This document shows positions 208 through 56,513 of a stretch of DNA of 64,000 bases, piece by piece. Position numbers and translations under genes: made by a program. Below the pieces are notes generated by a model. That model was given only the letters and a program-made list of their open reading frames with translations, did not search any database and was not told the DNA's origin. The stretch comes from a virus: positions 1 to 64,000 of IMG/VR virus record IMGVR_UViG_3300030943_000011. The stretch is one strand, 5' to 3'. The first letter of the stretch is position 1. Every line of letters starts with the position of its first letter.

Positions 208-1158
208 ATGAAACGGATCAACAATTTATACGAGAAGATTTACAGCATCGAAAACCTCCAGTTGGCTGATGAGATTGCCCGAAAAGGGAAATTAAAACAG
301 CCTGGAGTAATCGGGCACGACCGGAACCGGGAAGCAAACATTCAAAAGCTGCATAAAATGCTGAAGGATAAAACCTATAAAACCTCTGAATATACAACGT
401 TCACCATTTTTGAACCCAAAGAGCGCCTGATATTCCGTTTGCCTTATTATCCTGACCGGATCACCCATCACGCGGTGATGAACGTTCTGGAGCTAATTTT
501 TGTGTCTGTATTTACTGCAGATACTTACAGCTGCATCAAAGGAAAAGGCATCCATGCTGCGGCCAATGCGGTGAAACATGCGCTGAGAGATGTTCCCGGA
601 ACTCAATACTGCCTGAAACTCGATATTCGGAAGTTTTACCCGAATGTGGATCACAAAATACTCAAGCAGCTGCTTCGCCGTAAAATCAAGGATAATGACC
701 TGCTTTGGCTGCTCGACGAGATTATAGATTCAACCGATGGTCTTCCGATCGGGAACTACCTGAGCCAGTACTTTGCTAATTTCTACTTGACATACTTTGA
801 TCACTGGATGAAAGAAACCCTGCAGGTGAAGTACTATTTCCGTTACGCTGATGACCTGGTGATCCTCTCAAGCAGCAAGCCTTATTTGCACCAATTGCTT
901 GCCGAAATTAGGACTTATCTGAAAGACCGGCTTAAACTAACAGTAAAAGGAAACTATCAGGTATTTCCTGTCGATGTCCGAGGAATTGATTTTGTTGGAT
1001 ATGTCTTCCGTCACACACATACGCTGCTCCGGAAGAGCATCAAACAGAACTTTGCCCGAATGCTTAAAACCAGAAGAAATGCTCAATCAATTGCATCATA
1101 CAACGGATGGGCAGCGCACTGCAATTCCAAAAATTTAATGAAAAAACTACTTGCATGA
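208..1158 (+). CDS. Diversity-generating retroelement reverse transcriptase
   Basis: A 316-residue reverse transcriptase. Visible motifs are LDIRKFYP at about 138-145, IGNYLSQ at 181-187, the catalytic YADD at 213-216 and GIDFVGY at 259-265. The (I/V/L)GxxxSQ form of motif 4 is the signature that separates DGR reverse transcriptases from group II intron and retron enzymes, which have QGxxxSP. It would copy the template-repeat RNA with adenine-directed errors and so diversify a target gene. There is no maturase or endonuclease domain, and the length fits DGR enzymes. Its stop overlaps the ATG of the next gene (ATGA), suggesting coupled translation. The diversified gene is not in this window. 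Confidence 0.92.
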   Translation: MKRINNLYEKIYSIENLQLADEIARKGKLKQPGVIGHDRNREANIQKLHKMLKDKTYKTSEYTTFTIFEPKERLIFRLPYYPDRITHHAVMNVLELIFVSVFTADTYSCIKGKGIHAAANAVKHALRDVPGTQYCLKLDIRKFYPNVDHKILKQLLRRKIKDNDLLWLLDEIIDSTDGLPIGNYLSQYFANFYLTYFDHWMKETLQVKYYFRYADDLVILSSSKPYLHQLLAEIRTYLKDRLKLTVKGNYQVFPVDVRGIDFVGYVFRHTHTLLRKSIKQNFARMLKTRRNAQSIASYNGWAAHCNSKNLMKKLLA

Positions 1159-1460
1159 ACACATTTAGCCAATTCAACATCAGGGTAGAAAGCCAGGCTT
1201 TTGAAGGTGATAAAATCAAGATGTCGAGAATATTGAATCGTGAGATTGTGGTCCATCATTTCAAAGTTGAAGACTCTAAAGTATTTAAAGAGCGAGGATC
1301 CGGTAAGTGTTTGTGTTTGCAAATATCATTTGATCAGCGAAAACATATCGTTTTTACCGGATCTACCGGATTGATTGAAGTGATCCAGAAGATTCCTGAA
1401 TCCGGATTTCCCTTTACCACTACCATTATTGAAGAAAATGACAGATACTTATTTACCTAA
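1155..1460 (+). CDS. Small protein translationally coupled to the DGR reverse transcriptase
   Basis: A 101-residue protein of unknown function. I start it at the ATG in the ATGA overlap with the reverse transcriptase stop; an upstream in-frame ATG at 1107 would run deep inside that gene. The sequence is soluble, with no membrane segment, and ends in FPFTTTIIEENDRYLFT. From memory, similar small ORFs follow this type of reverse transcriptase in other Bacteroidota, so it may be a DGR accessory protein. It does not look like the four-helix Avd protein of the Bordetella phage DGR. Confidence 0.7.
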   Translation: MNTFSQFNIRVESQAFEGDKIKMSRILNREIVVHHFKVEDSKVFKERGSGKCLCLQISFDQRKHIVFTGSTGLIEVIQKIPESGFPFTTTIIEENDRYLFT

Positions 1461-1809
1461 AAAAGCCATGACCGAACCAAAACGCATTGAAGCACACATT
1501 CCTGAGACAGGCACATTCTTTTTAGCATTCCCATCACCGCAAAAAGACCTGATTGATATTGCCGAAACGCCGGTTGAAATGATTTTGGTTGATGAAGGCA
1601 GGGAAATAAAGGTAGTACGCGGCGACTTCTTCAGATTTCCACTGGACACAATGAGCAACCTGATTTGTGAGATTACTTACGGGCACGATGCCGCATGGAC
1701 CAGCCGCCATCTGAAACAAAAATACCCTTACCTGAAGGAGGATAGTAAGATCGCTTTCTTCCTGTTTAAAAAGGTAAAAACCACCGACAACGCAATTAAA
1801 AACCGATAA
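1438..1809 (+). CDS. Hypothetical phage protein
   Basis: About 123 residues, of a family I do not recognise. The start could be ATG 1438, overlapping the previous gene by 23 bases, or ATG 1468. The protein is mixed alpha/beta in look, with a conserved-looking centre (VRGDFFRFPLDTMSNLI) and a basic C-terminus. Base composition and orientation match the neighbouring DGR genes. No catalytic motif was seen. Confidence 0.6.
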   Translation: MTDTYLPKKAMTEPKRIEAHIPETGTFFLAFPSPQKDLIDIAETPVEMILVDEGREIKVVRGDFFRFPLDTMSNLICEITYGHDAAWTSRHLKQKYPYLKEDSKIAFFLFKKVKTTDNAIKNR

Positions 1810-1810
1810 A

Positions 1811-2263
1811 ATGCAAGTTAATAAATCATCAAATGAAAATAGAGATATTCAACTGGCAAAGCATTTATCATTGCATACCAATGAATTTCTTTCAAAATAT
1901 AAATTGTTTGATCTAAACAATTTGAGACTTTATCTTCAAAAAAGCAATTGCTGTTATTATACAAGGGTAGCTTCATTTTTAAAAGAGAACGATAAAATTA
2001 AATTCTCAAAAAAAGGCGGTAATGGAATAGACAATAGATATTCTGATTTATACATGAAAATTGATGCTGAGCCAATTCATTACAGAGTTTTTCTTGAATT
2101 AATTTTTCAATACAGAAAAAGTGTTTCCAATTATAAAAAGAACAAGTTTTTGCCAGTAGAAATTGAACCTCTAGAATTACAAGATATATCAGATAAGCAG
2201 ATTGCAGATGAATTAAGGCGCAGAGGATATATAGTCACCGCATCAAAAACCATTGAACTTTAA
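1811..2263 (+). CDS. Hypothetical protein, AT-rich
   Basis: A 150-residue protein with no recognised domain. It starts one base after the stop of the upstream gene. The coding sequence is visibly more AT-rich (many AAA, AAT and ATA codons) than the primase gene that follows, which suggests separate acquisition. The C-terminal part (SDKQIADELRRRGYIV) looks like a short helical motif seen at the end of several small phage proteins. The N-terminus is rich in Asn, Lys and Ser. Confidence 0.6.
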   Translation: MQVNKSSNENRDIQLAKHLSLHTNEFLSKYKLFDLNNLRLYLQKSNCCYYTRVASFLKENDKIKFSKKGGNGIDNRYSDLYMKIDAEPIHYRVFLELIFQYRKSVSNYKKNKFLPVEIEPLELQDISDKQIADELRRRGYIVTASKTIEL

Positions 2264-2317
2264 TCAACGCCTTGTAACGCGAAACCCGTAACTCATAATC
2301 AACAATAATCAACACTA

Positions 2318-5300
2318 ATGATCCCACAAGATACTATCCAGAAAGTACTGTCAGCCGCCAATATTACCGAAGTGGTTTCCGAATTTGTGAACCTGAAGAA
2401 GAAAGGCGTGAATTACCTGGGCGTTTGCCCTTTTCATAACGAGAAAACCCCCTCGATGATCGTCAGCCCGGCCAAGGGTATTTTTAAATGTTTTGGCTGC
2501 GGAAAGGCAGGTAATGCCATCAGCTTTGTGATGGAGCACGAAGCAATGACTTATCCTGAAGCCATTGAATACGTGGCTAAAAAATATCATGTCGAAATTC
2601 CGAAGGTTGAAATGACCGCAGATGAACTCCAGAAGCGGAGTGAGCGCGATACGATGTTTACAATGAACCGTGTAGCAGCTACCTTTTATGCTGACAACCT
2701 GAAGAACCACGGACAGGCTATTAATTATCTGAAAGACCGTGATTTTGATCTGGTGGATCTGGCGAAATTCGAATTGGGAAGTATTGCCACTGCCTGGGGC
2801 GGCTTGCTGGAATACATGAGTTCGCTGGGATATAATCCGCAGCAATTGCATAAGGCCGGTCTGCTTAGCAAGGCAGAAAGCGGTAAGTACTTCGACCGGT
2901 TCCGCGACCGGGTGATGTTCCCGTATTTCGATCTGATGGGGCATGTAGTTGGCTTTACCGGACGTATACTCGACCCGAACCCGGGTAAAAACGACTCCAA
3001 ATACCTCAATTCTCCGGAAACTGAATTGTTCCATAAGGGCCGGTTATTGTATGGTTTATTTCAGGCCAAAGCGGCCATTGTGAAAGAGGGAAAAGCTTAC
3101 CTGGTTGAAGGCAATACCGATGTAATCCGTTTCCACAAACAAGGACTTACCAATACCATTTGTACTTCAGGAACCGCTTTAACGGTTGAACATGCCCGAT
3201 TGATCCGCCGATTTACAAGCAACCTAACCATTCTATTCGATGGCGATGGCGCAGGCTTGAAAGCAGCTGTTAAAGGCATCGATATTTGTATTGCCGAAGG
3301 CCTGAATGTGTATGTGGCCTTGCTTCCAACAGGCGAAGATCCGGATACGTTTGCCAAAGGTAAAAGCCGCGACGAGCTGTATCGATGGATTGAAGATAAC
3401 GAGAAAGATTTCATTTTGCTGATGTGCGATTTGGCTGCAAAAGACATTGAGCAAAAACCTGCCGAAAAAGGAAAGCTGATCAACGAACTGCTTGACATTG
3501 TAAAGAAAGTTCCGGATCTGATTACCCGCGAAACTTATTTTTCTGAAGTGGCCAACAAATTCAGCCTCGACCGCAAAAAAGTTGAAGCCGGAGTATTCAA
3601 GGAAGAGAAGGCTGACGAGCTGTTTGGAATGATCGTGAACGAAACGGCCATTCGCGAAAAGGACCAGGTATTTATTTACACCTCAAAAGAAACGGCATTT
3701 GCCAATACCGGCTCGGATCTTGAAACAAATTCGATAGTTATCTCCGGATTATTGACCGCCGTACAGATCGGAAAGCTTTCAGGTATAACTAAGAATTTAG
3801 TTTTTGCCGAAGAGTTTGACTACGAACATTCTGCATCATGCCGGGCAGGGATGGAAGTATCTCCTGAAGAACTTATTAAAATTCAGCGTCAGGTCAAGCA
3901 AATGAAATTTCTGGCCGAGAACGGATTTGCAGTTTCGTTAAATTGTGGTGACCGATATGGAAATGATCAGGAATATGTATCGTTTTCGACCTTTTATTTT
4001 GACTATCTGGCCGAAAGTATCAAACCATATGATCCGGATTCGAAGAAAGAAGCGGTAGAAGCAGCTGCCGAATTCCTGAGTAAGCTCGACAACACGACTA
4101 TATCAATTAAAACAGCAGAGATTGCCAAGCGTTTTGGCCTGTCGAAAGCCGATTTTGCGCAGGTGCTGAAACCCTTCCTGAGTAAGGTAAAAAATAAGGT
4201 GCAGCAGCGTAACGAGGAAATAATGATCGATGATGAGCATTATGTTTTTTCGATCGAGAAACTTCCCGAGTATGTCGATCAGAAGTTCTTTAATAAGTAC
4301 AACCATTTTGCAGCCCAGAATAAAGACGGCAAAAAGATCTTTTATGTGTTTGCCACCGAACATGGCACCCTGACCAAGGTCGGTAACTTCTACATGGAAC
4401 CCCAGTTTCAGGTATTCTCAGACGATCCGCTTAAGAATAAACGAATCTGCAAGCTGAACCATGCCGATTTGCGATCGTCGAAATACGTGGAGATCCCGAG
4501 TAACGAAATGATTGAGTTTGGAGCATTTAAAAAGTTCCTGTTTCGTCAGGGTCCTTACCTGCTCCGGAATGCCAAAGTATTTCATCTGGATACCATTCTC
4601 GACTCCATCGCGCTTCAGTTCCCTGTAGCCTACGAACTAACCATTTTCGGTCAGCAGAACGAAGACTTTTATACATTTAGCAATGCCGCGCTGATCGATG
4701 GGAATATTAAGTACATGGACGAGCTGGGACTGATCGAGCATGAGAACACCACCTTTTATTCGCCCTCGATATCAATTATTTATAAGGACGTCAGGAAAGA
4801 TGAAGATCAGTTTGCCCTCGACCGTTTCTTTATTTACCGCGAAAACAAAAACGTACATTTCAAGGAATGGGCTGCCCTGGTACGCGAAGTGTATAAATAC
4901 AACGATAACGGCTGCTGGACGGTACTCATGGCCATTATGTGCGCCTTCCGGAGCGACATATTTAAGATTGACAGGCTATTCACCACCTTGTTTTTTATCG
5001 GCCCTACAGAGTGCGGAAAATCGCAATTGGCACAATCGATACGAGCATTATACATTCATCCTGATGCGCCAATGTTTAACCTGAATTCCGGAACTGATGC
5101 CGCATTTTTCACCATGCTCCAGCGTTACCGCGATGCACCGGTAGTGATGGAAGAGTATAACGATCAGCAGATATCGGATATTAAATTTCAGGGTTTGAAA
5201 GCCAGTATCTATGATGGTGAAGGTAAAACCAAGCGGCAAGGCGCACAGGGAACAGCGCTCGACGTTAGCCAGGTGAATGCGGTGCCGATATTGTTGGGAC

Positions 5301-6253
5301 AGGAAGCTCCTGAACGTGATGATGCTTCGCTGGCCAACCGTTGCGTATTATGCCCGGTACCTAAAAAGGAACTGTGGAGCGACAACGAAGTCGCAAATTT
5401 CCAACTCCTTAAACGATGGGAGAAAGAAGGACTTACAGAGATACTGGTTGAAGTATTGAAATGCAGGCCAATTGTAAGAGATCACTACCAAAACAAGCTG
5501 CGCATCGTGCAAAAGGAACTCCGTAAAGATTTGACCGACGACCATTCAGTATTTCAAACCCGTGTATTAAATACGGTATCATTGTTTCTGGCCATGGTGA
5601 AGTTGTTCGAAGAGCATGTTCCCGGATTGGAATTGCCATTCACTTACAAGGAGTTTTATCAGATTGCCCGGAAGAAGCTGATCCACCAGAGCGAAAGCAT
5701 TACCAGCTCCAACCGTCTGGCCGTGTTCTTCGATACGTTTGTGCAACTCACCGAAGATACCCGTAACGGACTGATACGTGGTAAGGAATTTAAAATTGAA
5801 TTGCTCGATGAAATTACCGTACGCGAAGGGCAGAAGAACAGCAGCCTGAAGACTTTCGACGATGGGCCAAAGAAAGTATTGTTTGTAAGGCTCGAAGTGA
5901 TTCACCCGAAATACCGCGACCGTGTGGGTATTCAGGAACATTTGAAAATGAACAACCTCCAAAACTATCTGAAAGATCATCCGGCCTATATCGGAGCAGT
6001 AAAGCATAGCACATTCACCTGGCAGAACGAACACCGCGAACTGGCTGACGATAGCAGCGGCAGGGTAATATCTACCATGTTCGAAGAATCGAAACGCACC
6101 AGCGCCATTGCATTGGACTACGAGAAGTTGGGTATTGATTTGGGTAGTTCAAGTCAGATGGAGGGAGGAAAGCCAGCATCGCCGGAACAACAGGCCGTCA
6201 GTTTGCAACTGCAGATGTATCCGAATGGAAAAGGCGATGGATTGCCATACTGA
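2318..6253 (+). CDS. Primase-helicase (CHC2 zinc finger, Toprim and P-loop domains)
   Basis: A 1311-residue replication protein. The N-terminus is a DnaG-type CHC2 zinc finger: CPFH at 37-40 and CFGC at 58-61. A DnaG-like catalytic core follows, with a Toprim domain (LVEGNTD near 262, acidic DGDGAG near 307). The C-terminal half carries a P-loop, GPTECGKS at about 895-902, and an acidic Walker B-like segment (VVMEEYND), as in phage helicases fused to primases. It would unwind DNA and lay primers for phage replication. The combination is longer than DnaG (about 600 residues). The origin-like repeats start about 80 bases after its stop, a typical placement for a phage replication module. Confidence 0.9.
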   Translation: MIPQDTIQKVLSAANITEVVSEFVNLKKKGVNYLGVCPFHNEKTPSMIVSPAKGIFKCFGCGKAGNAISFVMEHEAMTYPEAIEYVAKKYHVEIPKVEMTADELQKRSERDTMFTMNRVAATFYADNLKNHGQAINYLKDRDFDLVDLAKFELGSIATAWGGLLEYMSSLGYNPQQLHKAGLLSKAESGKYFDRFRDRVMFPYFDLMGHVVGFTGRILDPNPGKNDSKYLNSPETELFHKGRLLYGLFQAKAAIVKEGKAYLVEGNTDVIRFHKQGLTNTICTSGTALTVEHARLIRRFTSNLTILFDGDGAGLKAAVKGIDICIAEGLNVYVALLPTGEDPDTFAKGKSRDELYRWIEDNEKDFILLMCDLAAKDIEQKPAEKGKLINELLDIVKKVPDLITRETYFSEVANKFSLDRKKVEAGVFKEEKADELFGMIVNETAIREKDQVFIYTSKETAFANTGSDLETNSIVISGLLTAVQIGKLSGITKNLVFAEEFDYEHSASCRAGMEVSPEELIKIQRQVKQMKFLAENGFAVSLNCGDRYGNDQEYVSFSTFYFDYLAESIKPYDPDSKKEAVEAAAEFLSKLDNTTISIKTAEIAKRFGLSKADFAQVLKPFLSKVKNKVQQRNEEIMIDDEHYVFSIEKLPEYVDQKFFNKYNHFAAQNKDGKKIFYVFATEHGTLTKVGNFYMEPQFQVFSDDPLKNKRICKLNHADLRSSKYVEIPSNEMIEFGAFKKFLFRQGPYLLRNAKVFHLDTILDSIALQFPVAYELTIFGQQNEDFYTFSNAALIDGNIKYMDELGLIEHENTTFYSPSISIIYKDVRKDEDQFALDRFFIYRENKNVHFKEWAALVREVYKYNDNGCWTVLMAIMCAFRSDIFKIDRLFTTLFFIGPTECGKSQLAQSIRALYIHPDAPMFNLNSGTDAAFFTMLQRYRDAPVVMEEYNDQQISDIKFQGLKASIYDGEGKTKRQGAQGTALDVSQVNAVPILLGQEAPERDDASLANRCVLCPVPKKELWSDNEVANFQLLKRWEKEGLTEILVEVLKCRPIVRDHYQNKLRIVQKELRKDLTDDHSVFQTRVLNTVSLFLAMVKLFEEHVPGLELPFTYKEFYQIARKKLIHQSESITSSNRLAVFFDTFVQLTEDTRNGLIRGKEFKIELLDEITVREGQKNSSLKTFDDGPKKVLFVRLEVIHPKYRDRVGIQEHLKMNNLQNYLKDHPAYIGAVKHSTFTWQNEHRELADDSSGRVISTMFEESKRTSAIALDYEKLGIDLGSSSQMEGGKPASPEQQAVSLQLQMYPNGKGDGLPY

Positions 6254-6860
6254 AGCCGGACATTTTCATAATCAGACCGAAGGAAAACTAAAGGAGAAAA
6301 AAATAATAAAAAAAGCAACTGACAGGCAAAAGGGTGTTCCCGCGTTCCCGCGTTCCCGCACCCCGCGCCCCACGCTCTCAAAAAACCAGAGTAAAACGAT
6401 TTTGCAAAACTCATGCCATTGAAAACCAAGCCGATAAAGTATGATAATAATGATAAAAAAAGTAATAATCTCTCTCTGTAAGTTGCGGGAACGATGGGTC
6501 ACGCTGGGTCACGCTCTAAAAATTACTAATTTTTGGGTCACGCTGGGTCACGGTGGGACGGACGTTTTTAGCCGTGCCCCAACTTTTAATAAAAATAAGG
6601 TATTGAAAATTAATGTGTTAATCCGTAGCGGTTAGTCGTGGGAACGCGGGACGGAGAAATGGCAAAAAAAGGCCTTCTGAAAAAATAATTAATTTTTTTG
6701 CTCCAAAAACACCAAAAAACCGCCTACATATCTATTAAATTTTAATAATCAATCAATTTTTTGAATCGAACAATATTAAAAAATGTTCAAAAAATTAGAA
6801 AAGTGATAAAAAGTAAACTAAAAAACTATTTAACAATTTTTAAAAACCAATAAATAACCC
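6254..6860. other. Candidate replication origin: repeats, palindrome and AT-rich tract
   Basis: No gene is supported in these 600 bases. At 6335-6360 GTTCCCGC is repeated three times. At 6496-6515 and 6535-6554 there are two tandem pairs of GGGTCACGCT (the last copy GGGTCACGGT), flanking a 17-base perfect palindrome, AAAAATTACTAATTTTT (6518-6534). GGGAACG-type motifs recur near 6487 and 6640. From about 6655 to 6850 the DNA is strongly AT-rich, as expected of an unwinding element. Iterons plus palindrome plus AT-rich DNA next to the primase-helicase suggests an origin. This is inference from layout. Confidence 0.5.
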
Positions 6861-6980
6861 ATGGGAAAAGAAATAAATTATGATTTTTTGGTAGATGAAA
6901 TTATGGCTTACCAATTATCGAAGGAGTACAAACTTTTAAATTCATTAACACAATCGATATGGAAAAAGAAATCAAAATAG
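6861..6980 (+). CDS. Small ORF upstream of a phage gene pair
   Basis: A 39-residue ORF beginning MGKEINYDFL right after the AT-rich tract. It overlaps the next gene's ATG (6959) by 22 bases, which argues for coupled translation. It has no recognisable domain. Its reality rests on position and overlap only. Confidence 0.4.
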   Translation: MGKEINYDFLVDEIMAYQLSKEYKLLNSLTQSIWKKKSK

Positions 6981-7237
6981 CAGCCAAACTCTACGAATGC
7001 AGAGATACTGCCAAACGTTTTTTCCGCGAAGAATATGCCGAAAGATTGAAGCCTTACATCCACATCATTAAAGAAGTAATGAAAGCCAATCAATTAGATG
7101 AACTGGAGGCTATTCTCAGGATCAGTAAAACCGAAACATACCAAGAAGACGGAATGGTGCAACTATTGTTTATGGCTGCTGCAGTGGAAATGATGGAACC
7201 ATCTGAAGAATTTTTAAACCAAACTAAAGATCAATAA
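6959..7237 (+). CDS. Hypothetical protein
   Basis: A 92-residue, mostly helical, charged protein. The segment ETYQEDGMVQLLFMAAAVEMMEPSEEFL has the look of a small phage regulatory or adaptor protein, but I do not recognise the family. It is separated from the next ATG by one base, so the two genes probably share a transcript. Confidence 0.6.
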   Translation: MEKEIKIAAKLYECRDTAKRFFREEYAERLKPYIHIIKEVMKANQLDELEAILRISKTETYQEDGMVQLLFMAAAVEMMEPSEEFLNQTKDQ

Positions 7238-7238
7238 A

Positions 7239-7619
7239 ATGAACACACAATTTGGAGAATCATTAACAGGCGATTTCGAGGAAAGAACCTGGACGTTCGA
7301 AATGCCTGAAGACTTTACCGTTAAATCCGGAGAGTTTGCGATCGTACCAAAAGCTGAATATGAAGCATTGATTGAAAAACCAAGCTTTAACGGCGAATTG
7401 ATTTTAACGCTGGAGAGCAAACGAGATTGGGTCCGTAAGGTTCCTAATTATCTTCCGGAAAAAACAAGGGCTGAACGACTGATTTGGCTCGATGCAAATA
7501 ATAATAGCCTCACCATTGGCGAAGACTTTACATCTGCCGAAGAAATGAAATCATATCCTGTAAGGGTTTATCGGGTTACCAGAGTTACTGAAGCCGCGGA
7601 GAAAGTTAGAAATAAATAA
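7239..7619 (+). CDS. Hypothetical protein
   Basis: A 126-residue protein of unknown function. The first half is acidic and beta-rich (FEERTWTFEMPEDFTVKSG). The second half contains a basic helix-like stretch (RDWVRKVPNYLPEKTRAERLIWL). It directly follows the 92-residue protein and is the last of this small operon before a 58-base gap. Confidence 0.6.
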   Translation: MNTQFGESLTGDFEERTWTFEMPEDFTVKSGEFAIVPKAEYEALIEKPSFNGELILTLESKRDWVRKVPNYLPEKTRAERLIWLDANNNSLTIGEDFTSAEEMKSYPVRVYRVTRVTEAAEKVRNK

Positions 7620-7677
7620 CGTTAATTTTTAGACCGACAATAGACCTATTTGAAACAAACCTTTTTAAATAAATGAT

Positions 7678-8043
7678 ATGATTAATATTCAAAATGAAGT
7701 TCAAAAAATTCATTCACAATTCGGAATGAGCGAAATGGCACTGTATAAAATACAGTTGTTATGTTATCAGTATGCCAAAGAATCAAAACAATTTAAACCA
7801 ATTACGGATGAACTTCCACCTTTAGGAGTTGAATGTTTATTACAGAACGATAAGTGGATACACTTGGATTTCAACCCAAAAGGTATTCGTATAGGTTATA
7901 GATGTGATTTAAGCGGATGGGTATCAGCATATTTTTGCAGTCAGCATGATTGTTATATGACAAGACAGGCCGATGAAGACAATGATAACTTCGAACTATC
8001 GAAAGCCGAAGATCAAATTCCGACACATTGGCGACATTATTAA
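7678..8043 (+). CDS. DUF551-like small protein
   Basis: A 121-residue protein. The C-terminal two thirds (ITDELPPLGVECLLQNDKWIHL onward, ending IPTHWRHY) resembles the DUF551 family of small phage and prophage proteins, which carry a DxLPP...VL start and a P-x-HW end. Function is unknown. It is the last ordinary phage gene before the cassette array; the first attC-like element begins about 36 bases after its stop. Confidence 0.6.
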   Translation: MINIQNEVQKIHSQFGMSEMALYKIQLLCYQYAKESKQFKPITDELPPLGVECLLQNDKWIHLDFNPKGIRIGYRCDLSGWVSAYFCSQHDCYMTRQADEDNDNFELSKAEDQIPTHWRHY

Positions 8044-8078: not shown

Positions 8079-8205
8079 ATAACATCCAAAGCTATACGCA
8101 GGGCAGGTTACGAAGCGATTCACTTTCCTGTCCGCCAAGTAGCTGATACGGGCTGCAAAGCTCGAAACCCGATGCTACCTGACTTGCCGGATAGCTGAAG
8201 TTAAC
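8079..8205. repeat. attC-like imperfect palindrome A
   Basis: The left arm GCTATACGCAGGGCAGG (8091-8106) is imperfectly complementary to the right arm CCTGACTTGCCGGATAGC, and the element ends in GTTAAC (8200-8205). The interior (GCGATTCACTTTCCTGTCC ... CTGATACGGGCTGCAA) is nearly the same as in element C at 10549. Size (about 125 bp), imperfect dyad symmetry and position between small genes are those of an integron attC site, but the core does not match GTTRRRY exactly. Confidence 0.65.
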
Positions 8206-8284
8206 TGCCAGGGCTTCATTTTGTATCAATTGTTACAAACAAGTAAAATAATTACGAAATATCGAAAAATAATTGTAAAAAAGC

Positions 8285-8315
8285 TTGCATGATATTACTA
8301 TATATCGTATCTTTA
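8285..8315 (+). promoter_or_regulatory. Bacteroidota promoter of the first 97-residue cassette gene
   Basis: TTG at 8285-8287 and TATCTTTA at 8308-8315, 20 bases apart, match the Bacteroidota primary promoter (TTG, about 19-20 bases, TAnnTTTG). The start codon of the 97-residue gene is 31 bases further on. The same sequence recurs at 12715-12745, so the cassette carries its own promoter. Confidence 0.7.
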
Positions 8316-8346
8316 CTTCATCAAACAATCACAAATACAAAACATC

Positions 8347-8640
8347 ATGGCAACTTTAGAAATCGGACAAACAGGAAAATTAGGAAATGAAATTTTAACA
8401 GTAGTTTCTATTTCTGAACCAACTTTTAAGTGTGACAACGGCAAAATGTACATGATTGCAACTGCAAAATGGATGACTGAAGGAATTGAAATAGCAGCTC
8501 CAAAGGCAAAGAAAGCAAGAAAATACAACGCAGCCCCCGAAGATTATTTAACAGATATGACAAGAGAAGAAGCTGACAGAGCTGAAGCATACATGGCAAA
8601 TGCAAAATTCAGACAAGCAGGTAGCTCATTAAGAAAATAA
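8347..8640 (+). CDS. 97-residue cassette protein, copy 1
   Basis: A 97-residue protein of unknown function, opening MATLEIGQTGKLGNE and ending in a basic helix (KFRQAGSSLRK). The middle contains an Ala/Lys-rich linker (AAPKAKKARK). It is about 90% identical to the protein at 12777-13070, differing mainly around residues 20-26. It has its own promoter and is the first gene of the cassette that starts at GTTAAC 8200. The N-terminal beta-like half with conserved CDNGKMYMI may be a small SH3-like fold (inference). Confidence 0.75.
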   Translation: MATLEIGQTGKLGNEILTVVSISEPTFKCDNGKMYMIATAKWMTEGIEIAAPKAKKARKYNAAPEDYLTDMTREEADRAEAYMANAKFRQAGSSLRK

Positions 8641-8647
8641 TAAAAAT

Positions 8648-9763
8648 ATGAATATAGCTTTAATTGACAATGATCTACTAATGAGAGATAATCATAATTT
8701 CCCCAACTTGGCAATTATGAAACTATCTGCATTTCATAAAAACAAAGGAGATGTCGTAGAAATAGCTACTTTTAATGAAATAAACCCTTTAGCGCTCTTT
8801 AAAAAAGAATACGATAAGATTTATATTTCAAAAGCTTTTACCGAAACACCAACGCCTTCATTTGTTTATAATTTACCAAATGTAAAGATTGGTGGCACTG
8901 GATTTTATTTTGATAAAGCAGAACCGTTGCCTTATGAAATAGAACACACAAAACCTGATTACGATGCTTATAATTCAGCTTATAGAATTATAAAAGACAC
9001 AATGTTTTATACTGATTATTCAATTGGCTATACTACTAGAGGATGCTTTAGACATTGCTTATTTTGTGTAAACATTAATAGTAATAAAGTTAAAGTACAC
9101 AGTCATATTGATGAGTTTTATGATTCTTCAAGAAAAAAAATAGTTTTACTGGATGATAATGTTTTAGGATTACCAAACAATGAGCTTTTTAAAATATTTG
9201 ATAAGTTTCAGGAAATAAATAAACCAATTAATTACAAACAAGGACTCGATATCCGCTTGCTTTCAAAAGAACGAATTGATAGGTTATTTAGGTTAAAATA
9301 TGATGGAGGAAAAGGCGGGTTTACTTATTATTTTGCATTTGATTTATGGGAAAATAAATCCAAAATTGAAGAAAATTTAAAAATGTTTTCAGAAATGTAT
9401 TTTGAAAGAAAGCCTGATGTAAAATGGTAAGAACGAAATTGTATTGTTTTTGCGGGTTTAACCCAAATAATGAAAAATCTGAAAACTACTGGTTAACCGA
9501 TTTGGAAATACTTTTTAAACGATTTGAAATAATATTTAGATATAAGGCCGCCCCTTATGTAATGAAGCATAAAGATTATAAAGAAAGTCCCTTTTTTTTA
9601 CGTTTATGATGAAGTTGCAAACTATATTAATTCAATAAATGGAACTTGTTTATCTATGAGCTTTAATGAATATTTGGATACAGCTTATAAAAACACAGTC
9701 AAAACACGTCAATTTAGAGATAAATACCCACAATTTAAAATATTATTTAACACTAAATTATAA
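8648..9763 (+). pseudogene. Radical SAM protein, broken by two frameshifts
   Basis: The first ORF (8648-9430) has a variable N-terminus and then a CxxxCxxC radical SAM cluster motif (GCFRHCLFC). Homologous-looking sequence continues out of frame at 9424-9609 (LYCFCGFNPNNEKSENYW) and again after the T-run at about 9593-9600 (VYDEVANYINSINGT), to a stop at 9763. A shift near 9424 and one at the run of eight T would restore one protein of about 370 residues. Either the gene is decayed or there are two sequence errors. It is absent from the otherwise matching second cassette. Confidence 0.7.
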
Positions 9764-9768
9764 AAGAA

Positions 9769-10014
9769 ATGAAAACTTACTCATTGATCAAAACAAAGGC
9801 TGGCGAACGCAAAGGAACTGAAAATTCAAATTTTATTGGTGAAAATGAGAATGATCCTAAAATGTTGGCTGAAGTGAAAACTTACCTAACTGAATGGCTG
9901 AATAGTTATACAAGCATTTCGGATGAAGAAATTGCCGATTTGTTTTCTGCCTTCGCTGGCAGTTTTTCTTATGACGTTTGGAGCTTTGAATTAATCGAAG
10001 AAAATGAAAATTAA
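9769..10014 (+). CDS. Cassette protein paired with an HTH regulator, copy 1
   Basis: An 81-residue protein, unknown family, beginning MKTYSLIKTKAGERKG and ending SYDVWSFELIEENEN. Its last 11 bases overlap the ATG of the HTH gene, so the two form a coupled pair. A closely similar pair is found at 13101-13536. A small acidic protein ahead of a 65-residue Cro-like regulator could be a toxin-antitoxin or anti-restriction pair, but nothing visible decides this. Confidence 0.7.
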   Translation: MKTYSLIKTKAGERKGTENSNFIGENENDPKMLAEVKTYLTEWLNSYTSISDEEIADLFSAFAGSFSYDVWSFELIEENEN

Positions 10015-10201
10015 CGAAGCTATCAAGGCTGCAAGAATTGAGCAAAATATAACTCAAAAAGAACTTGCCGAAAAAATTGAAGTTCGCAAAGCCACAATTT
10101 CAGAGTTCGAGAGCGGTAAACATGCTCTCGGCTCTGACAAACTCGAAGCGATAATGAACGCTTTAAATCTGACATTTTCAAAATACACGGACGCAGATTA
10201 G
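10004..10201 (+). CDS. XRE-family HTH regulator, copy 1
   Basis: A 65-residue protein that is almost entirely a helix-turn-helix of the Cro/C1 type: ITQKELAEKIEVRKATISEFESGKHALGSDKLEAIMNAL. It probably binds DNA as a dimer and controls its own cassette. It is nearly identical to the copy at 13339-13536, differing at the last few residues. DNA identity between the copies stops at GTTAAC just after the stop codon (10209-10214). Confidence 0.85.
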   Translation: MKINEAIKAARIEQNITQKELAEKIEVRKATISEFESGKHALGSDKLEAIMNALNLTFSKYTDAD

Positions 10202-10208
10202 CCTTGCA

Positions 10209-10245
10209 GTTAACGCTCCCGCCAATACACGCAGTTGGGGATTTG
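10209..10245. repeat. attC-like half-site B with GTTAAC border
   Basis: GTTAAC (10209-10214) is followed by GCTCCCGCCAATACACGCAG and TTGGGG. This resembles the left arm of elements A, C and E (TAACG...TACACG) and is close to half-site D at 11648. The right arm is missing. It marks the end of the first duplicated cassette: homology to copy 2 stops at this GTTAAC. Confidence 0.55.
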
Positions 10246-10281
10246 AAAGATAATTTGTCAAACATAAATAAAACTTAAAAA

Positions 10282-10539
10282 ATGAATGAACAAACGAAAA
10301 CCACCGAAACCCCAATTGACGGGTATTTGGCTGTTATAACCAGTTTTTCAGCCTGTCCACATTGCGGAAGCACGTATGGTTATTATAGCCGAGTCAAAAT
10401 ATCTGGCACGGTTGATTATCAATGTGATTTTAACGGCAATGGCGAAAATACCAATATCGCAGATGGTTTTAATTACACAACAATCAGCAAAACTTACAGA
10501 TGTATCGAGTGTCGAAAGATAATCTGTCAGATACATTAA
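10282..10539 (+). CDS. Zinc-ribbon cassette protein
   Basis: An 85-residue protein with two CxxC knuckles (CPHC near 30 and CIEC near 75), typical of a small zinc ribbon. The segment between them is polar and may form beta strands. The function is unknown. It is the only gene between half-site B and element C, so it is a single-gene cassette. Confidence 0.65.
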   Translation: MNEQTKTTETPIDGYLAVITSFSACPHCGSTYGYYSRVKISGTVDYQCDFNGNGENTNIADGFNYTTISKTYRCIECRKIICQIH

Positions 10540-10548
10540 AATTGGTTA

Positions 10549-10674
10549 TAACGGTGGAAGCTATACGCAGGGCAGGATGCGAAGCGATTCACTTTCCTGT
10601 CCGAGAACTGGCTGATACGGGCTGCAACGCTCGAAAACTACGGCTGCCTGACTTGCCGGATAGCTGAAGTTAGC
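10549..10674. repeat. attC-like imperfect palindrome C
   Basis: It starts at TAACGG and has a left arm GCTATACGCAGGGCAGG and a right arm CCTGACTTGCCGGATAGC, followed by AAGTTAGC. It is about 85% identical to element A over its whole length, but the flanking genes are unrelated. Dyad symmetry with unpaired positions is what a folded single-stranded attC needs. The border reads GTTAGC instead of GTTAAC. Confidence 0.65.
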
Positions 10675-10710
10675 AACTAGGCGTTCATTCATCAACTTAA
10701 ATCTAAAAAT

Positions 10711-11292
10711 ATGCCTTGGTACGATTTAAACGAAAAAGTAGAAACGAAAAAGGATTATTTGCAAAGAGTCAAATATGATGAGATTATTTGCAAGAAAACT
10801 AAAAATTTCATTGACATTATTGGAGATGATTTATCCCCAAATGTTCAATATCGAATGGTAACGGAACAATCTTTTAATGCAATAGTCGTAATTGAATATT
10901 TGCTTAAAAGATATGAGTTAGTTGAGATTTATATTGCTGTTTACCGAATGAATCAATTGTCAGTCAACAAACTAAAATCAATCATTGATGCCGGAAATAT
11001 TAAATGTTCGATTTTGATTTCTTCGTTTTTTCGTGAAAACAAACGATATGAACGCTGGGCCGAAGAACTGATTATGTATGCCGAAAAAAGAGAAAATGTA
11101 GAAGTTTCTTTTGCTGTAAATCACGCGAAAGTTTTTATTGCAAAAACAAAGGATTTGAAATTTATAGTTTTTGAAGGGAGCGGAAATTTATCCGATAATG
11201 CCAGGATAGAGCAATATTTGATTGAGGATAATGAAACAACATACAATTTTCATAAAGAATGGATTACTAACACTTTAAATTTAAAAAAATGA
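10711..11292 (+). CDS. Phospholipase D-like protein in a cassette
   Basis: A 193-residue protein with one PLD-like active site: NHAKVFIAKT (HxK) followed by GSGNLSDNARIEQY. PLD-superfamily members include nucleases such as Nuc and BfiI, which work as dimers of one-motif subunits. The upstream part is alpha/beta. Its TGA overlaps the ATG of the next gene. A second PLD-like gene with a small coupled partner lies at 22839-23694 beside the terminase, so this pair may be a mobile relative. The substrate is unknown. Confidence 0.7.
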   Translation: MPWYDLNEKVETKKDYLQRVKYDEIICKKTKNFIDIIGDDLSPNVQYRMVTEQSFNAIVVIEYLLKRYELVEIYIAVYRMNQLSVNKLKSIIDAGNIKCSILISSFFRENKRYERWAEELIMYAEKRENVEVSFAVNHAKVFIAKTKDLKFIVFEGSGNLSDNARIEQYLIEDNETTYNFHKEWITNTLNLKK

Positions 11293-11603
11293 AAATCGAA
11301 AAAGAAAACGAAGAGCAGATTATCAATTTCGGAGTATTTACATATGATGCTTTGAAAATGGCCAATATTCTAAATCTTGAAGAAGCTGAAATTGCAAATG
11401 AAATGAGAGATAAAACATCTGATTTTTATAAGCTATATCAAAAAGGCTGCGATATGGCAGACTATGTAATTGATTTAAAATTATTCGAAATGGCAAAGTC
11501 TGGCGATATAAAAGCTCTTGACAAATTAGATGATCGAAAAGAGATTCGAAATGCAGAAACAAGAGAAAGATTTAAAGAAATAGCAAGACAGAAAAGAGAA
11601 TAA
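11289..11603 (+). CDS. Small helical partner of the PLD-like protein
   Basis: A 104-residue helical protein. The segment FYKLYQKGCDMADYVIDLKLFEMAKSG followed by DIKALDKLD resembles the YxxG...EIxLRxxIxxxAxxG helices of phage packaging-type adaptors and of the protein at 23410-23694. The gene overlaps the PLD gene by four bases. A role as DNA-binding partner is inference. Confidence 0.6.
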   Translation: MKIEKENEEQIINFGVFTYDALKMANILNLEEAEIANEMRDKTSDFYKLYQKGCDMADYVIDLKLFEMAKSGDIKALDKLDDRKEIRNAETRERFKEIARQKRE

Positions 11604-11647
11604 AATTCAAGAAGATAAAGATCACCATCAACGAAGCACTTACGCTT

Positions 11648-11685
11648 GTTGCTAACGGTGTAGCATACACGAAGTTGGGGAATAG
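11648..11685. repeat. attC-like half-site D
   Basis: GTTGCTAACGGTGTAGC is followed by ATACACGAAGTTGGGG. It matches half-site B and the left arms of A, C and E (TAACGG...ATACACG). The similarity to B continues weakly to about 11706 (TGTCAAA in both). No right arm is seen. It separates the PLD cassette from the methyltransferase cassette. Confidence 0.5.
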
Positions 11686-11712
11686 AAAGTAATAACCTGT
11701 CAAATTTAACGA

Positions 11713-12510
11713 ATGAAAATAGATACAGATACAGTAACAACCTGCACCGATACCCCAATTGCGGGTATGCGAAGTTATGCACAGCTTTCACATGGATCTC
11801 TGTTCAGCGGGATTGAAGGTTTTGGATTAGGTGCTGCAATGGCTGGAATCAAAACGGTTTTTAGTTGCGAATTTGAAGATTTTCAAACAAGTATTATTAA
11901 AAAGAATTTTGGAGATGAACACGAAATCAATAGAGATATTAGAACGTATAAAAACCCGCCATTTGTTGACATCATTAGCGGTGGATTCCCTTGCCAGGAC
12001 ATCAGTATTGCTGGAAAAGGTATCGGAATTGGAGGTGAAAGAAGCGGCTTATGGTCTGAAATGTACCGTATTTGTGGGATCGTTAGACCAAAGTACATTA
12101 TCATTGAAAACAGCCCAATGCTCCTTGTTCGAGGATTTGAGCAAGTCCTTTGCGACCTTTCCAAAATCGGGTATTATGCAGAATGGCAATGTTTATCTGG
12201 CACCGACTTTGGAATACAACAGGGTAGAGAGCGATTATATTGTATTGCCTACACCAACGAAATCGACAGCAAAAGGAGCTGCACGGAATCGGTATTTCGG
12301 AAGCCCTACTTACAGGGGAAATATACACGAGTATATCCGGGATGGAGAACAAGACAGTCTTTACCCTCACCCCGATTTGCTGGAAAATCTAATGTCATTC
12401 CCGATAGGATGGACAGAACTCAGTCAATAGGTAATGCGGTTCAACCGATAATTTCTCATTATCTTTTTGAATGTATCAAAATGCACTACGCCAAATTAAG
12501 TTGTGCATAA
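11713..12510 (+). CDS. DNA (cytosine-5-)-methyltransferase
   Basis: A 265-residue C5 methyltransferase. The motifs are in canonical order: motif I SLFSGIEGFGLGAAMAG (29-45), motif IV GFPCQDIS with catalytic Cys 94, motif VI ENS (132-134), motif VIII QGRERLY (170-176), a short target-recognition region, and motif X SIGNAVQP (238-245). It methylates cytosine in a short target, most likely to guard phage DNA against restriction. The stop codon TAA is also the start of attC-like element E (TAACGG). A second open frame overlaps it for 600 bases (separate entry). Confidence 0.9.
   Translation: MKIDTDTVTTCTDTPIAGMRSYAQLSHGSLFSGIEGFGLGAAMAGIKTVFSCEFEDFQTSIIKKNFGDEHEINRDIRTYKNPPFVDIISGGFPCQDISIAGKGIGIGGERSGLWSEMYRICGIVRPKYIIIENSPMLLVRGFEQVLCDLSKIGYYAEWQCLSGTDFGIQQGRERLYCIAYTNEIDSKRSCTESVFRKPYLQGKYTRVYPGWRTRQSLPSPRFAGKSNVIPDRMDRTQSIGNAVQPIISHYLFECIKMHYAKLSCA
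11831..12430 (+). CDS. Overlapping ORF in frame +2 of the methyltransferase gene
   Basis: A 199-codon ORF lies wholly inside the methyltransferase gene in another frame. Its translation contains TFPKSGIMQNGNVYLAPTL, then LLPTPT-like and RYFGSPTYRG segments, and ends NLMSFPIGWTELSQ. I recall these motifs from free-standing or fused proteins that accompany phage cytosine methyltransferases. Here they are the shifted reading of methyltransferase motifs: FPIGWTEL is the same DNA as IPDRMDRT. Whether it is translated is unknown. Confidence 0.3.
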   Translation: MLQWLESKRFLVANLKIFKQVLLKRILEMNTKSIEILERIKTRHLLTSLAVDSLARTSVLLEKVSELEVKEAAYGLKCTVFVGSLDQSTLSLKTAQCSLFEDLSKSFATFPKSGIMQNGNVYLAPTLEYNRVESDYIVLPTPTKSTAKGAARNRYFGSPTYRGNIHEYIRDGEQDSLYPHPDLLENLMSFPIGWTELSQ

Positions 12511-12640
12511 CGGTCTGCAAGTACACGTCAGGGCTGGACTACGGGCTGAAACCTTTCTTGTCAGAGCAAAAGACCGGGCGAATAAATGCAGACCGCACCG
12601 CACTGCTGCCAGACTTGCGGGTACTTTGCTGTTAACTGCT
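12508..12640. repeat. attC-like imperfect palindrome E
   Basis: TAACGG is followed by a left arm GCAAGTACACGTCAGGGCTGG. The right arm CCAGACTTGCGGGTACTTTGC is its imperfect complement and ends in GTTAAC (12631-12636). The interior differs from A and C but the architecture is the same. Downstream of GTTAAC the sequence becomes nearly identical to that after element A, so homology switches at the core. Confidence 0.65.
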
Positions 12641-12714
12641 GGGCTTCGTTTTGTATCAATTGTTACAAACAAGTAAAATAATTACGAAATATCGAAAAAT
12701 AATTGCAAAAAAGC

Positions 12715-12745
12715 TTGCATGATATTACTATATATCGTATCTTTA
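12715..12745 (+). promoter_or_regulatory. Bacteroidota promoter of the second 97-residue cassette gene
   Basis: TTG (12715-12717), 20 bases, TATCTTTA (12738-12745). It is a copy of the promoter at 8285 with almost identical flanks and serves the gene at 12777. Confidence 0.7.
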
Positions 12746-12776
12746 CTTCATCAAACAATCACAAATACAAAACATC

Positions 12777-13070
12777 ATGGCAACTTTAGAAATCGGACAA
12801 AAAGGAAAATTAGGAAATGAAGTTTTAACAGTAGTTTCTTTTGATAACATGACTTTCAAATGCGACAACGGCAAAATGTACATGATTGCAACTGCAAAAT
12901 GGATGACTGAAGGAATTGAAACAGCAGCCCCAAAAGCAAAGAAAGTAAGAAAATACAACGCAGCTCCCGAAAATTATTTATCAGAAATGACAAGAGAAGA
13001 ATCAGATAGAGCTGAAGCATACATGGCAAATGCAAAATTCAGACAAGCAGGTAGCTCATTAAGAAAATAA
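12777..13070 (+). CDS. 97-residue cassette protein, copy 2
   Basis: A paralogue of the protein at 8347-8640 with about ten substitutions, several clustered at residues 20-26. Function is unknown. It opens the last cassette, which starts at GTTAAC 12631. Here the radical SAM gene is missing and only about 28 bases with repeated ACCATT units separate it from the next gene. Confidence 0.75.
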   Translation: MATLEIGQKGKLGNEVLTVVSFDNMTFKCDNGKMYMIATAKWMTEGIETAAPKAKKVRKYNAAPENYLSEMTREESDRAEAYMANAKFRQAGSSLRK

Positions 13071-13100
13071 TAACCATTATAACCATTAAAACCATTTAAA

Positions 13101-13349
13101 ATGAAAACTTACTTATTGATCAAAACAAAAGCTGGCGAACGCAAAGGAACTGAAATTTCAAATTTCATTGGTGAAAATGAAAATGATCCTAAAATGTTGA
13201 AGGAAACTGAAACCTACCTTCGCGCCTGGTTGGATAGTTACAACAACAGCCTGACACTTGAAGAGATTGACAGACTGTTTGAAAATTTTGAAGGTAGTTT
13301 CTCTTATGACGTTTGGAATTTTGAATTAATCGAAGAAAATGAAAATTAA
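13101..13349 (+). CDS. Cassette protein paired with an HTH regulator, copy 2
   Basis: An 82-residue paralogue of the protein at 9769-10014. The N-terminal 30 residues are almost the same. The middle differs in sequence (YNNSLTLEEIDRLFENFEG against YTSISDEEIADLFSAFAG), as in a protein under diversifying pressure. It overlaps the HTH gene by 11 bases, like copy 1. Confidence 0.7.
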   Translation: MKTYLLIKTKAGERKGTEISNFIGENENDPKMLKETETYLRAWLDSYNNSLTLEEIDRLFENFEGSFSYDVWNFELIEENEN

Positions 13350-13536
13350 CGAAGCCATCAAGGCTGCAAGAATTGAGCAAAATATAACTCAAAAAGAACT
13401 TGCCGAAAAAATTGAAGTTCGCAAAGCCACAATTTCAGAGTTCGAGAGCGGAAAACATGCTCTCGGCTCTGACAAGCTCGAAGCGATAATGAACGCTTTA
13501 AATCTGACTTTTTCAAAATGCACGGACGCAAATTAG
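13339..13536 (+). CDS. XRE-family HTH regulator, copy 2
   Basis: A 65-residue Cro/C1-type HTH protein, differing from the copy at 10004 only at two residues near the C-terminus (SKCTDAN against SKYTDAD). The near identity next to a diverged partner protein suggests recent duplication or gene conversion. It is the last cassette gene before the recombinase. Confidence 0.85.
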   Translation: MKINEAIKAARIEQNITQKELAEKIEVRKATISEFESGKHALGSDKLEAIMNALNLTFSKCTDAN

Positions 13537-13543
13537 CCTTGCA

Positions 13544-13549
13544 GTTAAC
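13544..13549. repeat. GTTAAC border F, last cassette junction
   Basis: Identity between the two HTH cassettes runs through TAGCCTTGCAGTTAAC and then stops abruptly: GCTCCCGCC follows in copy 1 and TACTATATG here. The recombinase gene starts 52 bases downstream. This is the expected anatomy of a recombination crossover at GTTAAC, and it may be the attI-like end of the array. Confidence 0.5.
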
Positions 13550-13600
13550 TACTATATGTATTTTATTCTCACAACAAACTAACATTTAAAACTTTACAGC

Positions 13601-14434
13601 ATGAACATCGGAAACTATCAACGGCAACTTTCCGACTGGATGAAGTACAAAAAATACTCTCCGGAAAGCATAAGCAATTACGTTTCTTGTATCGGTAAGT
13701 TTCTCAAATATTTTGAAGATGAAGCAACAAAACCGAGTGAGATTTCTGCTGTTCAGATTAAAAAGTTTCTATCAACAAAACAGCAAGTAAATACTCATAA
13801 GGCTTATTTGTGTGCAATAAAGTTGTTTTACGAAAAGGTTGGACATCAACCGAGAAAGCTCGATAATGTTGAATATCCACGATCTGAAAAGAAATTGCCA
13901 ATTGTTTTGAGTCAGGATGAAATACAAAAAATGTTTGATGTTTGCGAAAACCTTAAACACCGCACTATTTTAGCATTGATTTACTCCTGTGGGTTGCGTG
14001 TTTCTGAAGTAATAAATCTGCAATGGAGTCACATCGACTGCAGCCGAATGATAATCAACATTATTTGCGCAAAAGGGCGCAAAGACCGACAAATTGCATT
14101 ACCCGAAACCATAATACCACTACTGAAAAGTTATTACAAAGAATATCACACTGAAAAATATGTTTTGAATGGTCAGTTTGGATTAAAATATTCAGACAGA
14201 AGCGTACTAGAGGTAATGAAGCAATTAGCCGCAAAATCAAAAATTAAAAAGCGAGTTTACACTCATCTTATCAGGCATAGCACATTTACGCACATGGTTG
14301 AGCAGGGCACAGACATAAACCTCATTCAGCGAATTGCAGGCCACAACAATGTTAAAACAACGATGCTCTATTGTCATCTTTCTGATAATCTTATCAGCAG
14401 AATACAATCACCAATTTCTAACATTAGAATTTGA
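13601..14434 (+). CDS. Tyrosine recombinase at the end of the cassette array
   Basis: A 277-residue tyrosine recombinase with a SAM-like N-terminal domain (about 1-90) and a catalytic domain. Catalytic residues visible are Arg133 (CGLRVSEV), Lys158 (AKGRKDR), His222 and Arg225 (THLIRHS), His248 (AGHNN) and the nucleophile Tyr257. It lacks the extra helix between the second and third catalytic patches that marks integron IntI. It lies on the same strand as the cassettes and after the last one, so it is the candidate enzyme for moving them. A Xer-like role in element excision is the alternative. Confidence 0.85.
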   Translation: MNIGNYQRQLSDWMKYKKYSPESISNYVSCIGKFLKYFEDEATKPSEISAVQIKKFLSTKQQVNTHKAYLCAIKLFYEKVGHQPRKLDNVEYPRSEKKLPIVLSQDEIQKMFDVCENLKHRTILALIYSCGLRVSEVINLQWSHIDCSRMIINIICAKGRKDRQIALPETIIPLLKSYYKEYHTEKYVLNGQFGLKYSDRSVLEVMKQLAAKSKIKKRVYTHLIRHSTFTHMVEQGTDINLIQRIAGHNNVKTTMLYCHLSDNLISRIQSPISNIRI

Positions 14435-14474
14435 TTCAAGTATTGGAGTTGTTGAACTAAAATCGTTATTAACA

Positions 14475-14505
14475 AAAGCCTGTTCGTAGTTGAGCAGGCT
14501 TTTTA
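14475..14505 (+). terminator. Terminator after the recombinase
   Basis: AAAGCCTG, a loop, then CAGGCTTTTT: a stem of about 7 bp with a T-run. It closes the cassette region before the structural genes. Confidence 0.75.
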
Positions 14506-14590
14506 TGTTTTTCGAACCATACATATTAAAATTAATTTCTATATTGTAACCGCTTCATTCACCGTGTTAATCCTATAACGCGATGTAAAA

Positions 14591-36993: not shown

Positions 36994-37122
36994 ATGAACA
37001 CTGCTTTAAAATTGGTCCACAACGCGAACGGAAAGCGGGACTACATCAACCGGCTGATCCAGGCCGAACCAAAAACCGGAGTTTTATTTGTTGATTTTAT
37101 TTGGCCAGACCGTTATTAAGAA
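36994..37122 (+). CDS. N-terminal fragment of a recombinase (other frame)
   Basis: A 42-residue ORF, MNTALKLVHNANGKRDYINR..., with an AGGAGG site six bases upstream. It overlaps the start of the recombinase frame, and a +1 shift near 37090-37110 would join them into one protein of about 320 residues. On its own it is not a complete protein. It may be a programmed frameshift or a broken gene. Confidence 0.5.
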
Positions 37123-38027: not shown

Positions 38028-38074
38028 TTCATTCATTTGTCATAACTTAGTTGGATAAACCAAAAATCAAGCTT

Positions 38075-56462: not shown

Positions 56463-56479
56463 AATGTCTGAATAAAGTT

Positions 56480-56497: not shown

Positions 56498-56513
56498 ACA
56501 AACACATACATAA

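Follow-up and report, generated by a model that had tools for sequence, protein, structure and literature searches.

Integrons in phages and a cassette array with a different recombinase

Integrons are known in phages, either with IntI or as clusters without an integrase, and 'divergent' attC directions have been noted among them (PMC9892861). In the same study, IntI1 recombined five of six attC sites of three virulent phages, one from P12002L, which infects a member of Bacteroidota. Archaeal integrons carry the IntI domain (PMC9668308), and the IntegronFinder 2.0 work reported few Bacteroidetes integrons (PMC9024848). In Riemerella, homology-independent uptake of aph(3')-IVb with a 140 bp attC-like 3' sequence has been described, its mechanism being left open (2026, PMC13148043). 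Searches of the open-access literature turned up no description of a non-IntI integron in phages. Here we describe a locus in a stretch of 64,000 nucleotides (the window), part of the IMG/VR virus record IMGVR_UViG_3300030943_000011 (65,738 bases). Five attC-like elements (A to E), each followed by a gene set, lead up to an attI-like site and to the gene of a tyrosine recombinase that is not an IntI. We read the locus as a phage-borne, integron-like cassette platform in which the adjacent recombinase would act on the elements and on the attI-like site, and put the probability of this reading at about 0.82.

Viral contigs were scanned for the recombinase, yielding first 21 loci and later 80 (the best 80 of 138 relatives). 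Elements were searched for as palindromes anchored on TAAC and GTTA; their density was also measured in a larger set of 84 related phage loci with 245 elements, and the attI-like site was counted in 69 loci. The carriers are the window phage and dozens of relatives, whose kin suggest Bacteroidota hosts. A contig with another sample identifier (L004) is 100% identical to the window over 20.8 kb. Three loci from metagenome-assembled genomes (L025, L027 and L028) are either prophage or free phage. The contig LCET01000016 (L026), binned as Woesebacteria, carries three elements and a recombinase, all of the type seen in Bacteroidota phages, and is likely a misbinned phage contig.

Cassettes change places at the TAAC core

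Comparison of related loci demonstrates the element architecture, an attI-like site, element polarity, matching end repeats and reordering at |TAAC. The reordering is seen in one phage represented by two groups of contigs, L188 (with L183 and L191) and L189 (with L185 and L192), which share 98.8% nucleotide identity in the recombinase region, 98% in the left flank and 92–99% in the right flank. Four cassettes (c, d, e and f; 287–340 nt) are 98.8–100% identical between the groups and differ in order, which is c, d, e, f in L188 and f, e, c, another cassette and d, beside attI, in L189. At nine junctions between the two arrangements, one side is identical over 32/32 positions and the opposite side is unrelated or belongs to another element, the switch falling exactly at |TAAC. 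Whole cassettes are also common to different phages from TAAC to TAAC (L196/L208 and L176/L195), and cassette E of the window has a relative with 78% nucleotide identity in the phage record L060, where homology again starts at |TAAC. Since the breakpoints lie at |TAAC, the mobile unit comprises an element and the gene 3' of it, and on these alignments the two together are a mobile cassette, moved site-specifically.

The contigs are metagenomic and some elements are 74–96% alike, so that homologous recombination or assembly errors between similar elements might be thought to create the variation. This is highly improbable, because most elements joined at the junctions have only TAAC or TAACG in common, too little for homology or assembly k-mers, and because each order recurs in several independent metagenomes.

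An integron-like cassette array inside a phage had been proposed in the initial annotation, and this is borne out by the related phages, which reorder cassettes with breakpoints at the predicted core. The prediction of where cassettes would break needs amendment: the break falls on the TAAC side, at the 5' end of the element, which moves with the gene 3' of it. Likewise, homology between the duplicated gene sets of the window (8211-8643/12641-13073 and 9767-10214/13099-13549) had been described as bounded at GTTAAC on both sides. The right ends do lie exactly there (10214/13549), whereas on the left the homology enters the element arm by ~30 nt.

Cassette ends complete the element in a predicted circle

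The nucleotides that follow the GTTA of an element are the reverse complement of those that precede the next TAAC or the TAAC of the attI-like site. Over 57 adjacent pairs there are 289 matches in 342 positions, whereas 10,000 re-pairings gave 148 at most; the arms used for finding elements were left out, making the test independent of the search. In 50 clean pairs the match spans 11 nt (66–100% at positions 1–6, 66–82% at positions 8–11, background from position 12), with a constant mismatch at position 7, where the TAAC side has T in 50/50. The end repeats are cassette-specific and vary between cassettes. As the sequences are arranged, they can pair beside an element, completing the palindrome, only in the excised circle. 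The sites at such circle junctions are predicted to fold better than the array sites in 50/50 cases on the top strand (-25.8 vs -18.4 kcal/mol; mean z -3.4) and in 48/50 on the bottom strand.

A candidate insertion site 5' of the recombinase gene

The site TAAC-TATTATATGTA is conserved immediately 5' of the recombinase gene in 63/69 loci, with 59 distinct left neighbours. To the left of its TAAC the information content is near zero, except at about -7, where T occurs in 61/63. A conserved right side joined to variable left neighbours has, on sequence, the look of an insertion site.

Two more tyrosine recombinase (PF00589) genes lie in the window (37088-37978 and 55203-56519), either of which may be the lysogeny integrase. 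That role might alternatively be given to the array-side recombinase, with the attI-like site TAACTATTATATGTA as its attP and the elements as unrelated regulatory or repeat sequences. The protein is a tyrosine recombinase of 277 residues in a phage, and both PHROGs and Pfam label it an integrase. We consider this very improbable, given that the cassettes move with breakpoints at element ends, that a different cassette end lies left of the site in nearly every locus and that the window has the two further PF00589 genes. Remnants of insertion sequences or transposons were also considered and rejected, as a transposase match is absent among the array proteins and the terminal repeats vary by cassette.

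Density, polarity and start codons

Elements are concentrated on the 5' side of the recombinase gene. Their density in the first 21 loci was 0.36/kb on the 5' side of the gene and 0.021/kb on the 3' side, shuffled sequence giving 0.034/kb; in the 84 loci it was 0.52/kb 5' versus 0.030/kb 3'. In 61/61 elements, the TAAC side has the longer unpaired spacer. Canonical IntI arrays located 5' of intI have, in the same scan, mostly the same spacer sign relative to the integrase, and the attI/attC polarity is therefore that of an integron. Only spacer asymmetry was used as a polarity marker, the side of extrahelical bases having been discarded because either arm may carry the bulge (35 right, 29 left). 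The outer box of the phage elements differs from strict GTTRRRY.

The longest open reading frame (ORF) of 193 phage cassettes points toward attI in 181 and away from it in 1, the others being close, and the element sits on the 5' side of the gene. Cassette genes thus point to attI and the recombinase, in the direction of the rightward transcription in this part of the phage. The ATG of the following gene lies inside 28/61 elements, as against 3/61 on the reverse strand and 2-3/39 chromosomal elements; random same-strand windows give 44%, so that only these two contrasts count, and not the in-element ATG by itself. In several cassette proteins the first residues would therefore be encoded within the recombination site.

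The recombinase and its chromosomal relatives

The initial annotation had placed a tyrosine recombinase of 277 residues at the end of the array and had found it to lack the IntI-specific insertion, and both statements hold. R133, K158, H222, R225, H248 and Y257 are invariant among the aligned relatives. The alignment to IntI4 (2a3v) splits into two pieces with the IntI-specific stretch missing; the same alignment columns contain 68-70 residues in 15 IntI, 27-30 in phage and chromosomal relatives and 27 in the window recombinase. The insertion is missing from 21/21 phage-clade members tested. In a maximum-likelihood tree, the phage group (100/100) and IntI (100/100) are separate. Membership of IntI was rejected on these grounds and on a TIGR02249 score of 162 bits against a cut-off of 265, and membership of XerC or XerD on scores of 152 against 335 and 151 against 330 bits and on their separate position in the tree.

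The closest non-phage relatives are XerA-like proteins (about 35-41% identity), matched in 87/296 sampled genomes of the phylum. Beside part of these chromosomal genes, elements lie 3' of the gene, with only stray matches 5' of it (0.123/kb vs 0.004 in shuffled sequence). There, the genes lead away from the recombinase, each with the element at its 3' end. On an Aeromonas plasmid (NZ_CP083462; L063, 6001-7772), a recombinase fragment with 41% identity to the window enzyme is followed directly on its 3' side by blaVEB-3, with GTTAGCGGTAATTT between the two, as if blaVEB-3 occupied the first cassette position at the attI of an XerA system of the Bacteroidota type; elements were sought near blaVEB-3 in this record and none was found. 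Polaribacter phage Leef_1 has one attC-like hairpin and a recombinase with only 32% identity, and was not used.

Which enzyme moves the cassettes

We infer that cassettes are moved by the adjacent recombinase, acting on folded single strands and by way of a circular intermediate. The recombinase would recognise two kinds of site, the attC-like elements in folded form and, adjoining the gene that encodes it, the attI-like site TAACTATTATATGTA. Cassettes, each an element with the gene 3' of it, would be excised as circles and inserted at attI or at other elements, strand exchange taking place at the TAAC/GTTA core. In the circle, the two end repeats would flank the element and lengthen its stem into a full recombination hairpin. 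Of the reshuffling by a non-IntI recombinase that had been suggested for this phage, the reordering and the non-IntI enzyme are thus both found, and the agency of the neighbouring enzyme is the part that stays conditional.

Several observations weigh against this reading. Every phage locus with this recombinase comes from metagenome contigs. Folded singly in the array context, as had been proposed for checking the elements, they score only slightly better than shuffles (z -1.9, 0.07, -1.5). The genes of cassettes A and C differ although the two elements are near-identical (86% across 132 nt), so elements and genes sometimes separate. Arrays also occur in phage records without this recombinase (L060 and L059), and another enzyme, of host or phage, may therefore act or once have acted.

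The array could accordingly be real but depend for its movement on the Bacteroidota host, through an IntI or an XerA-like protein encoded in the chromosome, leaving the phage recombinase for another task such as phage integration or dimer resolution. True IntI is present in 84/296 sampled genomes of the phylum, which keeps a host IntI as a possible second actor, and the XerA-like proteins are about as frequent, part of them beside such elements. In vivo, IntI1 recombines an attC site from Polaribacter phage P12002L (PMC9892861), and L060, a phage record of 47.9 kb, has an array of eleven elements (611-7884) with no recombinase of this family. A host enzyme nevertheless appears unlikely to us as the mover: the elements crowd immediately 5' of this recombinase and not 3', the attI-like sequence conserved with the recombinase clade is the very junction to the variable cassettes, and the clade is a distinct phage clade. 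In P12002L (L046), two short elements of the same kind (38035-38090 and 38879-38936) flank methyltransferase genes; they are probably the attC sites assayed with IntI1 in PMC9892861.

We think it likely that these loci form a separate, phage-specific integron class in Bacteroidota phages, with an XerA-like clade without the IntI domain, its own attI, circle-completed attC-like sites, inverted gene polarity and in-site start codons.

Layout of the array in the window

Five full attC-like elements of 124-127 nt each, with a gene set after every one, lie within 8080-13600 (Table 1). Elements A, C and E were recovered as palindromes where they had been proposed. B and D had been taken for half-sites, and both are full; their right arms lie ~100 nt onward, inside the start of the next ORF, and this is why they seemed incomplete. 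Element B reads TAACGCTCCCGCCAA-TACACG-CAG-TTGGGG...CCCCAA-TTGACGGGTA-TTTGGCT-GTTA. The core proposed for all arms, TAACG...TACACG, applies to B, D and E but not to A and C, which carry TATACG. A sixth palindrome match, at 10859, falls within an ORF and was set aside as probably spurious.

Table 1. Features of the cassette array and its right border (window coordinates)
Feature	Position	Strand	Remarks
Array (corrected limits)	8080-13546		
attC-like element A	8080-8203	+	TAAC/GTTA-anchored palindrome, score 22; farthest from attI; left spacer exceeds right
Cassette A cargo	8200-10210	+	Four genes; inverted repeat GTTAACTGC...GCAGTTAAC
97-aa protein (A)	8347-8640	+	
Radical SAM protein (A)	8648-9430	+	
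81-aa protein (A)	9769-10014	+	
Helix-turn-helix (HTH) protein (A)	10004-10201	+	
attC-like element B	10211-10336	+	Score 26; encloses ATG (10282) and initial codons of the following gene
Cassette B cargo, 85-aa zinc-ribbon-like protein	10282-10539	+	N-terminal residues come from element B; inverted repeat GTTATAACCAgTTT/AAAtTGGTTATAAC
attC-like element C	10549-10672	+	Score 20; recent paralogue of A, genes differ
Cassette C cargo	10711-11603	+	Inverted repeat GTTAGCAAC/GTTGCTAAC
Phospholipase D (PLD)-like protein, 193 aa (C)	10711-11292	+	phrog_20533/endonuclease
104-aa protein (C)	11289-11603	+	
attC-like element D	11653-11777	+	Score 26-27; encloses methyltransferase ATG (11713)
Cassette D cargo, C5 cytosine DNA methyltransferase, 265 aa	11713-12510	+	PF00145, E 6.7e-38; inverted repeat GTTATGCAC/GTGCATAAC
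attC-like element E	12508-12634	+	Score 20; moves together with downstream genes
Cassette E cargo	12631-13545	+	Duplicate of cassette A; inverted repeat GTTAACTGC/GCAGTTAAC, as in cassette A
97-aa protein (E)	12777-13070	+	
82-aa protein (E)	13101-13349	+	
HTH protein (E)	13339-13536	+	
attI-like site	13546-13600	+	TAACTACTATATGTA...; kept directly 5' of the recombinase gene
Tyrosine recombinase, 277 aa	13601-14434	+	XerA-like; PF00589, E 4e-35
Terminator-like hairpin (candidate)	14461-14506	+	Right border where homology to array-less relatives returns

On the left, the array is bordered by a DnaG-type primase gene (2318-6253) and small genes, and on the right by p189, an S49-protease and a capsid block. 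Alignment with array-less relatives restarts at 14464 (L053/L054) or 14600 (L049). L049 has the backbone of the window (primase 92.6% identical in amino acids), with a methyltransferase gene in place of the array and recombinase. This gene, large and C5 methyltransferase-like (5368-7341 of L049), makes the locus an accessory hotspot even without an array. A reverse transcriptase gene (RVT_1, E 6e-18) is present at 208-1158 of the window, and may be part of a diversity-generating retroelement or of another reverse transcriptase system.

Cargo

Among 121 cassette proteins, Pfam gave about 14 matches to DNA methyltransferase families, which may overlap (N6_N4 6, C5 4, Dam 2, D12 1 and EcoRI-type 1). 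Other cargo comprised PAPS reductase-like proteins (3, or 7 by PHROGs), Lar restriction alleviation, TET-associated glycosyltransferase (TAGT), radical SAM and RNA ligase, and most of the proteins had no recognised family. Judging from these families, the benefit is likely the rapid exchange of anti-defence and anti-restriction functions.

Significance and comparison with known systems

Integrons are defined by IntI. If our reading is true, cassette capture through folded sites is not unique to IntI, phages own a device dedicated to the exchange of genes for anti-restriction and DNA modification, and a minimal system is at hand for asking what purpose the IntI insertion serves. The fixed polarity of the elements together with the reversed genes separates the demands of the chemistry from those of expression. 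Bacteroidota also show unexplained gene uptake of a cassette-like kind, and the chromosomal relatives, present in about 30% of the genomes sampled from the phylum, provide a mechanism for it that can be tested; we suggest, as a suggestion only, that this sister system may underlie the resistance-gene uptake of Riemerella (PMC13148043).

The chromosomal XerA-like systems of Bacteroidota (NF040815, 'site-specific tyrosine recombinase/integron integrase') resemble the phage loci in the type of element, in the end-repeat pattern beside part of them and in lacking the IntI insertion. They differ in having the array 3' of the recombinase gene, cassette genes that run outward from it and an element at each gene's 3' end. 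Phage integrons and clusters of attC sites lacking integrases (CALINs; PMC9892861) likewise combine attC sites and cassettes in phages, including Bacteroidota phage P12002L, with methyltransferase cargo. However, those have IntI or no integrase, whereas the about 70 distinct loci described here share a non-IntI recombinase that is specific to phages and has an attI of its own. In Treponema integrons (PMC3607928), recombinase and cassette genes share a strand, as they do here. The initial annotation had compared the orientation of the two, but in Treponema intI precedes, and is transcribed toward, attI and the cassettes, whereas in the window the recombinase comes last, after the array, with attI on its 5' side.

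With IntI integrons, both class 1 and chromosomal, the phage loci share a recombinase gene with an adjacent attI and a cassette array, palindromic elements ending in AAC/GTT with unpaired asymmetric spacers and variable stems, the polarity of the elements relative to attI, cassette ends complementary to the outer arm of the element, and reordering at the core. In contrast, the phage recombinase is without the IntI insertion and belongs to another clade, and the phage cassette genes face attI, about half of them starting inside the element, whereas IntI cassettes face away and have attC at the 3' end of the gene. The outer paired arm is ~15 nt and cassette-specific in the phages, where IntI integrons have the 7-nt GTTRRRY box. 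The array is thus a cassette array of the integron kind, which appears to work like an integron yet is not an IntI integron, because the integrase family and the gene polarity, two defining features, both differ.

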